Positions 41,501 to 59,200 of a DNA stretch of 64,000 nt are shown piece by piece. A program made the translations under genes and the position numbers. The stretch is from Lineus longissimus (lineage: Eukaryota > Nemertea > Pilidiophora > Heteronemertea > Lineidae): the NCBI RefSeq assembly GCF_910592395.1, contig NC_088326.1, forward strand, positions 377,001-441,000, in the 5' to 3' direction. The notes beneath the pieces are model-generated. The model was not told the DNA's origin and searched no databases. It was given only the letters and a program-made list of their open reading frames with translations. The first letter of the stretch is position 1, and each line of letters starts with the position of its first letter.

Positions 41501-44500
41501 AGCCTTATACCAGCAAGACTCAGTATGCTGCTATCAGTATTAACTCCCTTAGGGGTCCCCACCATGTGAAGAACTATCTCTCAATAACGAACAAGGTGAC
41601 TAATCTATAAGTGCAGCTACTGGTCAATCTATCCTGTCAAATATTTCCCTACTTATCTTATGGCTCTTGTATGAATTCGCTCAGTTTAAAGGAGAAAGAC
41701 ATTTGAAACTGTGGATACCTCGTGGTTGATGCAGAAATTTGAAAAACGGGGCACAGCCACCACCCAGAGAGAAAATGAAGAAGTGATTTGCTTTTTGTGG
41801 GGAGAAGCCCAGTAAACTCCTTGCTCTTCTCTCAAGAAAGTCAACCACTTATATTGATACAAAACTTTTGCACAGCCCTCTCCAAACCTTTTATTCACAC
41901 TTCAAATTCAGGCAAACGTTGGGAAAATCTACTGTGACATTCTGGATTGGAAAGTGATAATTGTGAAGGAAGAGTTCAATGCGACCAGAGGGAGGGGAGG
42001 TAATTAAAAGAAGAGCTAAATCTACCCATATTACCATGGTAACAGACTAACAAACTCCATCCTAATTCTTATTTACAGAAGGAATAAATGTAAATAATGT
42101 ACAACAGTTTACAACTGCCTCACAACAAACACTGTCAATCAAAACAAAATATTGACATTTTCAACAGATTTTTTATGATCGAACATAACAGATAGATTTT
42201 TTCAGAAAAAATTTGTTAGTTGTTATACAAGAAGATGTACAATATTTGTTAGAAAAATCTCACTAGTTTGTTTTTAAGAATCAGGATGGAGTTATGAGAA
42301 CTACGACATGTCAAAACACGAGTACCGCAATTCAAACATTTGAAATAAAGAGGTCACAACGACATTTAACCAGGTGTTCTTGCAGAATATTTCAATTATT
42401 TCAAGTATGATTGAACGTAAAAATGTCTGAGAATGGCGTCCGCGGCTATTTTCTCTGCCGTTTTCTGCAGACTTGATTCTTACCCTTCCGCCATATTGTA
42501 ACCTGGGGGGTGGCAAGACTCGTCCCTGCACTTCGGTCATCCACTGATTAACTTGTAGGCCAAAAGTTTGGAGAAACGGATCGTCATTGAATTGTGCTTT
42601 GCGAACCTGGAGTTTTTGTAAAATTTGAAAATTTGGATCTAATTAGCGTTCCGATTTTCTTAGTCATTTTCAAACGCCTTTGCTAATTTTTCCTGAAGTA
42701 AAGAATTTTGGTTGAGTTTTTTAGTGCTGTGTTTTGACCTTTAAGGTCGCTGACCTGGTTGCTACACTCACACGTAGTGATGGACTAACGAAGTGGATAA
42801 AATTCAGCGGCAACTTGGATGGGTGACAACATATTTTGACTTATTAGCCAAAAATATTTCACCAGAATTTTTTGTTCAACTATCTTTCTTTTTTCAAAAT
42901 TGTCCAAGACTTAATGAAAGAAATACACCTTTCAATATTTCTTAACTTTGAATTTCAAAAACTGGGTGTTTTTTTCTTCAAAATTTCAGAAGAAAAAAAT
43001 TCACACTGAGATTAATATCAAAGGTCACAGAGGACAAAGTTTGAAATTGTAGCTGCACATTTTGTAACTGATATTTCGATGCCCACTTCGTTAATCAACA
43101 AACCACACATATGACAACCTCTGACCCAGAACCCTATCCTAGACCAATTCTATCATCGCAGATACAAAGTCAATTCAGAAAATAGCAGGACAAACTTCTC
43201 GCACCAATCCAAGAGTATGAAAAGAAACCATAACCTGATTTATACCGTACGACAGGCAACAGGAGAATCGAGAAACCAAGCTTAGAAATAGCAAATTCTG
43301 TTGCAATTTTTATCCCCGCATAAAATATTCCAGTTTTCCACATCATACTCGTCAAATCGAGAAATGGATCAAAATGACCTATTTACTCCAGCTTGTACGA
43401 ATCTGTACCCTGCCAAATGCAAATCTCCCCTCAATACTTCAAAAAACAAATTCTAAAAGCGTAATCTGCTTATTTATGAAATCCAAAAGGTCAAAGATAA
43501 AGGTTAAAGGTCAGAGGTCACCAAATAGAAGTCAAAGGTCAAAGACAGAGCAGAGGGAAGCAATGTATGCCTACCCGGCCGCCATACTGCAACTTTGGTG
43601 GCACCAGGACGCGACCTTGAACTTCGGTCAGCTGATTTGAGACGCTGATACCGAACATTTGCAGGTAGCGATCGTTGTTGAAGTCTGCTTTGTGAACCTG
43701 TGTGAAAGGTTGAAAATAGATATGAAAATTGTTAGAAACACGAAATGCATCTTTTTCTTCTAACATTTTGAAGTGACTTGTTCATTAATCATTCTTGATC
43801 ATGCCGTGAAGAGTGACACGTTAACTCAAGTAACCCTGGTACTGTGTGATCAATATCACCCTTGCCTGTGTGTGTGGGAGGACCGGGGGGGGGGATTTTC
43901 TTGGCCTTACATCCACCAGGGACTGAAATCAAGGTCGAGTAATTCACATAAAGAAACAATCTTGGAAAGCTCGCTCGCCAATAGATTTGCTTATTACCCC
44001 AAAACATCACAACATCAGAAGATAAAGATGCATTTTACACAACGGTCTTCAGCTTTCACATAACAAAATCTAAACATGAGAAGATGAACATCCTTTTGAA
44101 GAATAGCCAATTATCAACTAACACCTGCAACTATGAAAAGATGAGACTTTTAATCAAATCCGTGAACATCCAAAACCTAAACTTGACGAAACTGAAATCA
44201 ATTAGACAGATCAAAATATACAAGAGAATAGAACGAAATGAAACCGACCAGGAACAAAAACTCATTTAAATAAGGTCACATATGAAAGTGATGATGACAT
44301 TATTCAAATTATGTTCAAAACTAATTGCAATTTTTCCATTACAAACAATTAGCTGAATAGTTTTGCTGTAGACTGAAACAAGCTTCTTAAAAGGAATGAT
44401 CGAGGTATCTCATTATCTTTTCTAACTTTCTGAGTGGTTTGCTCTTTTCAGAAGAACTTGTTGGTGACCTTCAAGTTAGAATCAGACAATTTTACAATTT

Positions 44501-56200: not shown

Positions 56201-59200
56201 CGCAAACATTTAAAAACAAGTACGGAACTTTGAATGCGCACAGGCTCATGATTGTCTTTATTAAGGGGGTTATCTGGACAAAGACACTTTAATACCCGTC
56301 AGTGTGATGTTTTGTGAACGTAGAAAGTTCTTGTAGCTGTGCAGATCACCCCTTTTACTAATGTTTCATCCTCCGTTGCGTCTCCTCTAGGTGCGAAAAG
56401 CCGACTTCAACAACGACCGCTACCTTCAAACCTTCGGCATCAGCATCTTAAACCAGATGACCGAAGTTCAAGGTCGCGTACTGGCGCCACCAAAGTTGCA
56501 GTATGGCGGTCGGGTAGGCACACATTGCTTCCCTCTCCTCCTGTTCGATTGACCTTGAATCTGTGGTGACCTTTGACCTCTGACCTCCTCCCTCAATGGT
56601 TGAAATCTGGCATGATGATTTAACCGTGCTGCAAATGAGGGATAACTCTTCATGTGATGTGTGACAATAAGATTTCTTGTCTGCTGTAAAGCTGGTTATC
56701 ACTGGGTTCGATATATTGATCACAGGCAGTATTGAATTGATATTGCCACAGTTATTGGCAGTCTGCAGTTTGGGTCAGAGGTCAGATGTCGAAGGTCATC
56801 ATTCGTATGATGAGCTGATCAATGAAGTAGACAAACTTGAAGTCACAAATTCTAAAATGTTGGCGTAAGAAATCAGAATTTTAGAAGGGAATATTTGTGT
56901 ATTTTGTCCACTTCTTTGATCAGTGTGTGTGTGTGTGTGTGTGTGTCGAAGCCAGGTAAATGAAGGTCAGATATCCTTAGGTCAAGGTCAGCTCCCCCCC
57001 AAATTCTTTACTTCAGGCGACAAACCAAAACCACGGGCACAATGGCTAAAGAATAATCGAAAACATTTGACAAAAAAATTAAGAATTTCAAATTTTACTG
57101 AAAAATCTGCAGGTTCGCAAAGCAGAATTCAACACGGACCCCTACCTTCAAACTTTCGGGCTACAAGTTAACACGTGGATGACCGAGGTGCAGGGACGAG
57201 TTTTGCCGGCCCCGAGATTGCAATATGGCGGAAGGGTAAGACATAAAGCAGTGGTGCAGCACAACGTGGGCCGCATTATACTGGTGTATATCTCTGGTCA
57301 TAGGTGGCAGCAGTTGTAACTAACTTTACGCCTGAAGTACACAAATTGACCACTGCTACCACCTATTGTAAAGGATGTAAACTAGGATACTTTAAACAAA
57401 ATCACCAATGAACTTGGCCTTTAATGTTTTGTTATACAATGGGTAATTCGATGGGTGACCATTTTCAAGATTTAGCCGGAAAGTCCTGCATGATTATCAC
57501 AAGTGTCAGTATTTGATATTACTGTTGAATGCACTGATTGGACACCAGTTCCTGTGATGCAGCACCCTCTATGATGAGCTGTGTGAACTATTGTGTTGAG
57601 ATGTTTACATGTCGGTGTGTATGGTGGATTTAGTCTATGCTGATCCTATTCAAGACCCCACCTAGTGGTCAGTTAGGGAACGAAACAGTGTGCGCTTATG
57701 TGGACAGCCCTTGCAGTATTTTGAACACGCCTTGTTGGCAGGTAATGGGGAATAATCAACTTGTGGCAAACCAAGGACTTGGGTTGTCTCGGGGACATTC
57801 TATTGTCTTTAGAATCTTGAATGGTTGCAAAATGACTCACGGCTTGTGTATTTAAAACCTGGTTTGAATGAGGTTTTAGTGAATGAATCTGCTGTGCTCA
57901 AATGATTTCAACATAACCCCTTGTTCTGAATGTACACTAACTATTGCCCAGTGTGGAGACTGCATGTTACATTGAAAATAACTGGTCCAATAGATTAAAT
58001 GATTAGCGAAAGGTGGAAATATTTTGAACAGAAATGTCATTTGTGGCAAATTATACAGAAGGGAGATTGTAGTTTAACAGCATTGACAAGTCATTGAGCT
58101 TCATTAAAATGTACTCTGCAGTTTCATCAGAGAAATTTTGAGTAAAACAAACAAGCAATTTTTGTCGCTGCAACCTGCGATGTCAGGACGACAACCATGT
58201 GTGAGTCGGTGTAAATTGTTGTCAAATTTGAGATTTTGAATGCCGAGATTTTCTATTGTTTGTGTACTGATTATATGTATGTTTTCCTTGCAGACCGCTC
58301 CGCAGGTAGAGAATACTTCGACCCGAGTCGAATTTTCAAATACAGTGCATGAAGTTCTGACAAAATGAAAAAACAAAGTTACCATATAAAAACCTATGAC
58401 ATAGCTTGGTGATTATTTTGGTTTGCTAAATTTCCAGCCTGGCCAATCGGTTGAATAGCCAGCTGATGTATGAGTAGTGAGCTTGATTACTGTACAACCA
58501 AATATTGGGTTTTGATTGGATTGGTAAAAGTTGTGAAAATGTACCCTCAGAATTGCACAAACTGACATACGACAAGATTTTGTCAAAAATGTTTAGACAA
58601 CATTTCACTCTTTACCCATGATTCATTAGGATCAGGATGGACTTTGTTTTTTTATCGTCATGGTTACTGGTAGTGGCATTTAGAATAGGCTGTTCCTTCC
58701 TTTGCTTCCCTCCCTCCTGTGGATAAGCTTCCTTTCCTATTCTGTTTGTATTCATGTGGTTGTTGACAGGGGGGTGTAGGCACCAGGAGAGTTATGTGTG
58801 TCGTTCGTTGTTATGTTGTCTGTCTCCTGTCCTCAAAACGTCTGTTATCTCCCGAAAAACGAATCTGTTGCAGATGATACATGTTGGCGTGTTACTTTTA
58901 GTACTGAACTTATCCACCAGGAGGGCTGTAGTTAAGCTTCTGAATGTCACCCTGCAGTCAGGTCACCAAATAGCTGAGCTCACAACCAGTAATGTCTGTC
59001 GCAGACAACCGATTTTCTGCCTCGTGTAGGAATCTGAAAATAGTCGCATTCATTTTCAATTTGTGTTCTTGCTAAGCTCTATGGTGACCAGTTATTGTGA
59101 ATTTCACCCAAACTCAAGAATACATTAACAAAGGGAGAGTATCTTCATGTGCATTAGAAAGTGTCAAGAAAGTTCCCTCAGCTTAAGGCTGAAGTGCATG

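Follow-up and report, generated by a model that had tools for sequence, protein, structure and literature searches.

The window analysed here, a 64,000-nt stretch of the genome of the nemertean Lineus longissimus (NC_088326.1, positions 377,001 to 441,000), carries two Argonaute (AGO) genes arranged head-to-head, gene 1 on the forward (+) and gene 2 on the reverse (-) strand. Over their full length the products are nearer to human AGO than to Piwi proteins (1543 bits to human AGO2, 164 bits to the best Piwi-like chain), and the slicer residues (DEDH) are present, in motifs of which YYAHL is one, in the sequences of models P0001, P0018 and P0020. When the L2 region was searched at the protein level against the whole genome, six matches were obtained, all of them within these two genes.

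The special feature of both genes is a pair of tandem exons, 10A followed by 10B, which sits between E9 and E11 (Table 1). Each exon is 123 nt long, of phase 0-0, and by alignment encodes the equivalent of residues 383-423 of human AGO2, a part of linker L2. All four copies have open frames, AG acceptors and GT donors. The original prediction of two such exons for the same 41 residues, in the order A then B, is thus borne out in both genes, and the flanking exons that it had named agree with the models of E9 and E11. Identification of exon 10 with helix-7 of human AGO2, which we take to lie around Ile365, could be ruled out, as the alignment places the helix-7 stretch in the constitutive E9.

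Table 1. Position of the alternative linker exons, their neighbours and the intron repeats in the two Lineus AGO genes (window coordinates)
Feature	Position	Strand	Remarks
Gene 1 E9, end of PAZ and first part of L2	55483..55666	+	constitutive, upstream of the pair
Gene 1 exon 10A, type A	56391..56513	+	Asp at the human S387 position; in model P0018
Gene 1 A-B intron	56514..57112	+	weak A donor GTAGGC; TGACC repeats complementary to GGTCA repeats
Gene 1 A-B intron, TGACC arm	56563-56587	+	predicted stem
Gene 1 A-B intron, GGTCA arm	56778-56802	+	predicted stem
Gene 1 exon 10B, type B	57113..57235	+	Glu at the human S387 position; no model seen
Gene 1 microexon, 12 nt (TAPQ), L2-MID junction	58294..58305	+	between exon 10 and E11; in P0018
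Gene 1 E11	59956..60089	+	constitutive, downstream of the pair
Gene 2 E9	44524..44707	-	constitutive, upstream of the pair
Gene 2 exon 10A, type A	43575..43697	-	Asp at the human S387 position; in P0019, P0020
Gene 2 A-B intron	42607..43574	-	weak A donor GTAGGC as in gene 1; TGACC repeats nearby (from 43541)
Gene 2 A-B intron, complementary GGTCA repeats	43127-43116, 42744-42733	-	predicted stems
Gene 2 exon 10B, type B	42484..42606	-	Gln at the S387 position, Phe at the Y393 position; in P0001-P0004
Gene 2 E11	41177..41310	-	constitutive; P0003 has an additional Gln from the tandem acceptor CAGCAG

Age and constraint of the two exon types

Between the paralogues, the A exons are identical at 107/123 nt and 35/41 residues and the B exons at 101/123 nt and 36/41 residues, whereas A and B of the same gene share 84/123 nt (68%) and 29/41 residues in gene 1, and 80/123 nt (65%) and 27/41 residues in gene 2. 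The claim that like resembles like across the paralogues more than A resembles B within a gene is also upheld by the quartet of exons, in which 21 nucleotide site patterns group A with A and B with B, a single one groups by gene and none supports the third arrangement (5:0:0 for amino acids). Third codon positions follow the same order, with 31/41 identical between the A exons, 26/41 between the B exons and 14-19/41 between A and B. Nei-Gojobori estimates (NG86) of dN and dS amount to 0.078 and 0.41 for the A exons, and to 0.084 and 0.86 for the B exons; between A and B, dN is 0.21-0.27, while dS is saturated, and thus incomputable, in three of four comparisons and 2.1 in the remaining one. 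Four open exons with intact splice signals and dN well below dS represent constrained coding sequence rather than chance. In trees, the A segment of Lineus groups with an AGO of Tubulanus, apart from Lineus B (support 95/88), whereas the remainder of the protein, outside exon 10, unites the two Lineus paralogues. Taken together, the quartet, the near-saturated synonymous sites between A and B and the Tubulanus grouping argue that the exon split predates the gene duplication, as had been proposed, and the A/B pairs of molluscs point further back still.

Gene conversion has made the similarity between the paralogues patchy. It is recent over E5, E9, E12, E13 and E16, which show a pooled dS of 0.03 (181/184 nt identical in E9), as against 1.3 for the other compared exons, exon 10 excluded. 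Exon A, the dS of which (0.41) lies below that of most unconverted exons, may itself record an old partial conversion. Such exchange could have spread a pair that arose in one Lineus paralogue after the duplication and was then copied into the other. This course of events is very improbable, however, since A and B are saturated at synonymous sites in three of four comparisons, beyond the pooled unconverted value of 1.3 between the genes, since Lineus A joins Tubulanus rather than Lineus B, and since the same swap occurs in molluscs.

Isoform models and the choice between A and B

Among the six protein models fetched for gene 2, all of them annotation models, two contain A, four contain B and none contains both; two A/B pairs that were compared are otherwise identical over 330 residues upstream and 300 residues downstream. 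For gene 1 there is an A model (P0018, the representative of five clustered records), and exon B was found in no database model searched, so that its use is inferred from its constraint. The predicted A-or-B isoforms are therefore matched by the models of gene 2, and by that of gene 1 for A. In both genes the two exons are homologous neighbours that agree in length and phase, as is characteristic of mutually exclusive exons. Exons 10A and 10B are probably an ancient tandem exon duplication in a gene of the AGO clade, spliced in a mutually exclusive manner such that part of L2 (383-423) is exchanged. It could be objected that each pair includes a relic, rarely or never spliced, and that the isoforms are artefacts of annotation; the isoform evidence does consist of annotation models, gene 1 B is in none of them, and the A donor is weak. 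A relic is nevertheless hardly to be expected to keep open frames, intact splice signals and a dN well under dS between the paralogues, as both exons of both genes do, and proteins from short contigs, of a length fitting an intron-free transcript, contain either the D-type (P0005, P0046, P0048) or the N-type segment (P0011, P0057).

Several conventional means of exclusion do not apply. The A-B introns of 599 and 968 nt are too long for steric exclusion, all introns are GT-AG, which rules out a minor-class mechanism, and a frameshift safeguard fails because 123 nt preserve the frame. Since a transcript with both A and B would keep the reading frame, mRNA decay after a frameshift could not account for exclusion, which must be achieved during splicing. 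Elsewhere in these genes, E3a and E3b are separated by a gap of 30 nt, where steric exclusion would fit. Ahead of B there is also a conserved acceptor-like site, use of which would lengthen the exon by 96 or 86 nt containing stop codons.

The A donor (CGG/GTAGGC) is identical in both genes and weak, ranking fourth to fifth from the bottom among 35. Behind it lie repeats with complementary partners in the A-B intron, for which in each gene none of 2000 shuffles was as good; the A-B intron duplex reaches z-scores of -3.6 and -2.8, against -1.24 to +1.18 in 20 other introns. The partner of the A-donor repeats inside this intron is its middle (z -3.4 and -2.9) rather than the 200 nt before B (z only -1.3 and -1.1). 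Docking in the outer introns was weaker: for genes 1 and 2 respectively, z was -2.0 and +0.2 with the E9-A intron, and +1.3 and -1.0 with the first 800 nt of the B-E11 intron, and no outer-intron docking site holding up in both genes was found. The repeat motif matches three times in the window, each time within these introns, and once in a 200-kb sample, where paired clusters occurred on 0/40 strands; the notion that the repeats are peculiar to these introns is weakened, however, by 649 matches in the whole genome against 61 for a reversed control. It could also be that an old conversion tract ends in the 77 nt that follow the A donor. If the complementary repeats fold just behind the weak donor, regulation would fall on A, with B used by default. 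That the choice is made in this way is a tentative proposal, weaker than that of a single origin before the split of molluscs and nemerteans and held at somewhat less than even chance.

The pair in molluscs and other animals

In Aplysia, Babylonia, Pecten and Ylistrum, models of a single gene likewise exchange these 41 residues, and the flanks are identical (330/330 and 300/300) for Aplysia, Pecten and Lineus as well as for one Babylonia pair out of two. In Physella and Batillaria, A and B follow each other in tandem within one model. Against this, the exon-10 swap is absent from four of nine multi-model sets. What the sequences establish is that both Lineus genes have the two exon types, that these exons are constrained and that their split is older than the gene duplication, and that alternative models exist for gene 2 and for four mollusc genes.

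A single origin before the split of molluscs and nemerteans is favoured with moderate confidence, though not proven. Compared with the free tree, two origins cost 13.7 lnL units and one origin only 5.0; the unit of 41 residues and the order A then B are common to Lineus, Physella and Batillaria, and Tubulanus P0031 has N387 together with N402-T403, as do several mollusc B forms. On the other hand, exon 10 may have been duplicated independently in molluscs, in nemerteans and in Priapulus, the likeness being due to convergence in a stretch where variation is tolerated or even favoured. The 41 columns available do not reject two origins (p-AU 0.061; single-clade tests p 0.155-0.168), Lineus B is about equally near to mollusc A and mollusc B (mean identity 28.8/41 and 28.1/41 for gene 1), the Priapulus pair is reversed in order, with the N-form first, and other exons of these genes (E3, E17, Lineus gene 2) were duplicated in single lineages. 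Weighed against the likelihood costs and the shared unit, order and residues, independent duplication appears unlikely. If the pair of Priapulus is the same one, the L2 pair is perhaps as old as protostomes.

Residue 387 and comparison with known systems

Exon 10 spans the positions of human S387, Y393, K402 and S417; Lineus has not kept the human residue at the third and fourth of these. At position 387, Asp occurs in 8/8 A forms and never in B: the A/B residues are D/N in 6/6 mollusc pairs (Aplysia, Babylonia, Pecten, Ylistrum, Physella, Batillaria), D/E in Lineus gene 1 and D/Q in gene 2, and with Glu in its B form gene 1 is without an acid/neutral contrast at this site. In human AGO2, according to the portion of PMC5507773 available, S387 is phosphorylated by AKT3, and phosphorylation there enables LIMD1 to link AGO2 with TNRC6A and reduces cleavage; charge at this residue has a known strong effect. 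Because A and B differ at a spot that is kinase-controlled in the human protein, splicing may do the job of the phosphorylation switch. Asp in A would act as a fixed phospho-mimic that locks the protein in the miRISC-assembled, repressing state, B with Asn (molluscs), Gln (gene 2) or Glu (gene 1) would be less engaged with miRISC, and mutually exclusive splicing would replace the kinase in controlling miRISC assembly. By this analogy A/B choice would set assembly through residue 387, a speculative reading that is on the doubtful side.

The original proposal was that exchange of this hinge segment might affect guide loading, release or slicing. The pair may indeed be real and functional and yet act by altering the loading of guides, the motion of the hinge, contact with Dicer or the stability of the protein, rather than by way of residue 387 and miRISC assembly, a reading with a substantial chance, if somewhat below even. 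Positions 390 and 414 likewise differ in 8/8 pairs, and other positions in most, so that 387 is not singled out by the pattern alone; at 414 the difference runs in opposite directions in molluscs and Lineus. In human AGO2 the surface that binds Dicer is close to K402, as described in the part of PMC4624959 available, and Y393 is replaced by Phe in Lineus gene 2 B. What speaks against another function is the consistency of Asp at 387 in A and its absence from B, together with the effect of charge there in the human protein. A structure prediction (mean pLDDT 40.5) was set aside.

The Babylonia AGO models show a second swap, of a segment holding a catalytic Asp. Changes or losses of catalytic Asp in several molluscs accompany either exon type, so that A and B are not simply repression and slicing forms everywhere, and the equation of A with repression and B with slicing is not general. 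A motif scan found the tetrad intact in 87/123 proteins, a figure not used as a count because many of the other 36 are pattern misses or fused or partial models. A wider, rather improbable scheme would regard spiralian AGO as combinatorially spliced, the L2 pair, older than the mollusc-nemertean split, setting miRISC assembly by Asp/Asn, a task that falls to a kinase in vertebrates, and a second choice toggling a catalytic Asp in some molluscs; if true, one gene would yield slicing and non-slicing, repressing and non-repressing Argonautes.

Diversity of animal AGO proteins is usually ascribed to gene duplication and protein modification. A constrained and very old L2 exon pair would mean that molluscs and nemerteans pick the Argonaute type at the splicing step, and any RNAi work on snails, scallops or ribbon worms would have to specify the isoform measured. 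It had been stated at the outset that no well-described mutually exclusive linker exon is known in an animal AGO; no description of an exchangeable L2 exon pair in an Argonaute was found in the literature searched, which agrees, but public annotation databases already list the A/B isoforms. In shrimp, too, alternative splicing is held to produce several isoforms, Ago1A, Ago1B and Ago1C, from a single AGO gene (PMC3510085); they differ, in the part of that account available, by a 27-residue PIWI insertion and by 9 nt inserted close to the 5' end, and not by exchange of homologous L2 exons. Also comparable are the mutually exclusive tandem exons of Dscam, Mhc, 14-3-3 zeta and other genes, which, as far as the available part of PMC6071210 describes them, share with the Lineus pair the adjacent homologues of equal length and phase, of which one is used per model, and introns of the exon cluster that contain complementary stretches; the Lineus pair is unlike them in its Argonaute host and in having the complementary arms within the A-B intron. 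In human AGO1-4 the same L2 segment varies, but between genes rather than within one gene, with S387 conserved in AGO1 and AGO4 and the mimic E390 in AGO3 (PMC5507773, available portion). The AKT3-LIMD1-TNRC6A switch at phospho-S387 of human AGO2, as covered there, resembles the Lineus and mollusc pair in the linker position and in the variable charge at 387, whereas in the latter the residue, Asp versus Asn, Gln or Glu, is fixed by the exon and would be chosen by splicing. As A and B differ where AKT3 and LIMD1 control the human protein, the residue-387 switch becomes testable with natural isoforms of one gene.

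The L2 exon pair and its use in Lineus

Both AGO genes of Lineus longissimus carry two versions of exon 10, whose 41 residues align with residues 383-423 of human AGO2, the later part of linker L2. Nucleotide identity is higher between like types of the two genes (A-A 107/123, B-B 101/123) than between A and B within a gene (84/123 in gene 1, 80/123 in gene 2), and quartet site patterns of 21:1:0, with 21 favouring A with A and B with B, agree with this pairing; length, phase, order and type-wise identities of the exons are thus as the original prediction described them. Between A and B, dS is saturated in three of four comparisons and 2.1 in the remaining one, with dN at 0.21-0.27, and when the whole genome (391,118,348 bases) was searched for the L2 region, the six matches found all fell within the two genes. 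The isoform evidence consists of annotation models, not reads: among six gene-2 models, four have B (P0001-P0004), two have A (P0019, P0020) and none has both, and two A/B pairs of these models show no other difference across the 330 residues before and 300 after exon 10. The sole gene-1 model seen, P0018, is of type A and represents five clustered records, among which a B-type model could be hidden. We are highly confident that A and B are real, constrained and alternatively used exons.

Alternative exons and a small insertion in the two AGO genes
Feature	Gene	Position	Strand	Remarks
Exon 10A (A)	1	56391-56513	+	123 nt, phase 0-0, between E9 and E11
Exon 10B (B)	1	57113-57235	+	123 nt, phase 0-0, between E9 and E11
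Exon 10A (A)	2	43575-43697	-	123 nt, phase 0-0, between E9 and E11
Exon 10B (B)	2	42484-42606	-	123 nt, phase 0-0, between E9 and E11
E3a, E3b, tandem N-domain exons	2	47057-47180, 47211-47334	-	105/124 nt identical; both in database models
E17a, E17b, alternative last exons	2	38408-38516, 38799-38907	-	72/109 nt identical; both in database models
TAPQ insertion, L2-MID junction	1	58294-58305	+	

The genes lie head to head, gene 1 at 50288-62615 (+, 899 aa) and gene 2 at 48340-38408 (-, 917 aa), and both belong to the AGO clade (1543 bits to human AGO2 vs 164 to the best Piwi-like chain, with the gene-1 protein as query). Catalytic motifs are present in both. The exon models agree with the database proteins except for two small insertions in P0018 and one extra Gln in the gene-2 model P0003. 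Three extra residues (VFS) before E7 in P0018 correspond to the last nine intron bases, 54755-54763 (+), and have no preceding AG in this assembly. The tandem exons E3a and E3b, 124 nt each, cannot be joined, both for lack of space (a 30-nt gap) and because 124 nt would break the frame, and E17a and E17b give different C-termini. Three other loci of the genome have Piwi-domain matches (C1:20.88M, C2:3.05M, C6:19.3M), the first having a long open frame (443 codons) with few or no introns.

Distribution and age of the exon types

The protein set comprised 123 different proteins from two exon searches (18 matches each) and a Tubulanus AGO search (120 of 1334 matches listed). Among the matches listed, both forms are represented among the models of a single gene in Aplysia (5 B, 2 A), Babylonia (4 B, 6 A), Pecten (1 B, 2 A) and Ylistrum (2 B, 1 A), so that the pair, proposed for the two Lineus genes, extends to molluscs. 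The 330 + 300 flanking residues are identical in two Aplysia pairs, in Pecten and in one of two Babylonia pairs; the second Babylonia pair differs additionally by a four-residue insertion, and in the Ylistrum pair a further segment is exchanged. Models from Physella and Batillaria join A and B, in this order, in one protein, and a Priapulus model joins two exon-10 forms, N-form first. With Lineus gene 2, the swap occurs in five of the nine sets of at least two models compared; among the matches listed it is absent from Mytilus californianus, Mizuhopecten, Daphnia pulex and Tachypleus, where the other form may simply be unlisted, and was not found in the arthropod proteins. Two exon-10 segments each are present in seven vertebrate records (P0023-P0029), which are read as fused AGO gene models. 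Tubulanus has two AGO genes, one A-like (P0016) and one B-like (P0031).

In a gene tree of 444 columns, from which exon 10, the N-terminus and converted exons were removed, the two Lineus genes form a group (99/97), and grouping gene 1 with either Tubulanus gene was rejected (p 0.004 and 0.007). In the exon-10 tree (41 residues, 45 sequences), however, Lineus A joins Tubulanus P0016 (95/88), with Lineus B placed separately (99/93); grouping Lineus A with B was not rejected on these few, 41 columns (p 0.11). Because the two trees group the sequences differently, the exon split is dated by sequence before the gene duplication, as originally proposed, and probably also before the Lineus-Tubulanus divergence; the pair is older than originally proposed. 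For molluscs and nemerteans together, a single origin lies 5.0 lnL units below the free tree (p 0.32) and two origins 13.7 units below it (p 0.061), with p 0.168 for molluscs together and p 0.155 for nemerteans together in single-clade tests; one origin is moderately favoured.

Gene conversion has homogenised E5, E9, E12, E13 and E16 (pooled dS 0.03 vs 1.3 in the other exons compared), and the dS between paralogues of A (0.41) and B (0.86) is intermediate between these pools. Conversion is patchy across 38408-62615: identity is 98-100% in these exons and in two short introns, compared with 66-93% in the remaining exons.

Further variation was seen in the same protein set. In two of ten Babylonia areolata models (P0098, P0104) a 13-residue segment is replaced by FFGASITHPPVGD with loss of a catalytic Asp, possibly a splice switch of slicer activity; one of the two models has exon type A, the other type B. 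The same Asp is missing in four oysters (GANV), Haliotis (GASV) and Dreissena (GGSV), each represented by a single model; Lineus has one exon per gene in the window for this segment. In Tubulanus polymorphus, P0016 reads YRSGISEG vs YRDGVSEG elsewhere (catalytic Asp to Ser), and P0031 keeps that Asp. Several phyla have small insertions at the L2-MID junction, which besides TAPQ in Lineus occur in Sinanodonta, Mercenaria, Dreissena, Chamberlinius, Priapulus and Aedes models. Further swapped segments correspond to Lineus E4 in Ylistrum balloti (P0035 vs P0032, P0034) and to the beginning of E11 in Mytilus californianus (P0045, P0050 vs P0053, P0054).

A candidate stem behind exon A

The donor of exon A reads CGG|GTAGGC in both genes. 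Scored with a matrix built from the remaining donors of the two genes, the two copies are the fourth and fifth lowest of 35 donors, and the B and E9 donors outscore them. Among introns free of recent conversion, the A-B intron is the most alignable between the paralogues (a stretch of 77 nt following the A donor aligns at 78%, and two islands of 20 nt at 95% and 90%); in the E9-A intron 30 nt align, adjoining the converted E9. TGACC repeats close to the A donor and GGTCA repeats deeper in the intron (4/6 in gene 1, 4/4 in gene 2) form an arrangement equalled by none of 2000 shuffles per gene. The duplex energy of the A-B intron has z scores of -3.6 in gene 1 (0/100 shuffles as low) and -2.8 in gene 2 (1/100), and 20 other introns of at least 240 nt range from -1.24 to +1.18. 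Against a specific role, however, the repeat motif has 649 matches genome-wide vs 61 for a reversed control, and the 77 nt that align may simply mark where an old conversion tract ended. A regulatory stem in this intron is a plausible candidate.

Residue 387 and human AGO2

The A/B isoforms as such are already present in public annotation. No description of such exclusive exons in L2 of any animal AGO was found in the literature covered, mainly the main texts of non-subscription papers, including papers on Biomphalaria AGO2 (PMC11353429), mollusc small RNAs (PMC12479628), shrimp Ago1 (PMC3510085) and human AGO2 variants (PMC9363364).

All eight A/B pairs differ at positions 387, 390 and 414. 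In each of the six mollusc genes with both forms, residue 387 is D in the A form and N in the B form, and the corresponding A/B residues of Lineus are D/E in gene 1 and D/Q in gene 2; Pro at 414 belongs to A in molluscs and to B in Lineus. In the wider mollusc set 387 is D in 12/12 A and N in 11/11 B segments, but the six pairs give the cleaner count because the wider-set labels rest partly on residue 387 itself. In human AGO2, according to one study, S387 phosphorylation by AKT3 lets LIMD1 bind L2 and recruit TNRC6A, S387A fails in silencing and S387E rescues it, and earlier work cited there links S387 phosphorylation to less cleavage and more repression (PMC5507773). K402 SUMOylation (PMC4624959) and Y393 and S417 phosphorylation (PMC12388510) also map into exon 10, K402 and S417 being unconserved in Lineus. 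That the choice between A and B acts through residue 387 is a tentative and rather unlikely reading, under which splicing would stand in place of the kinase that switches human AGO2.
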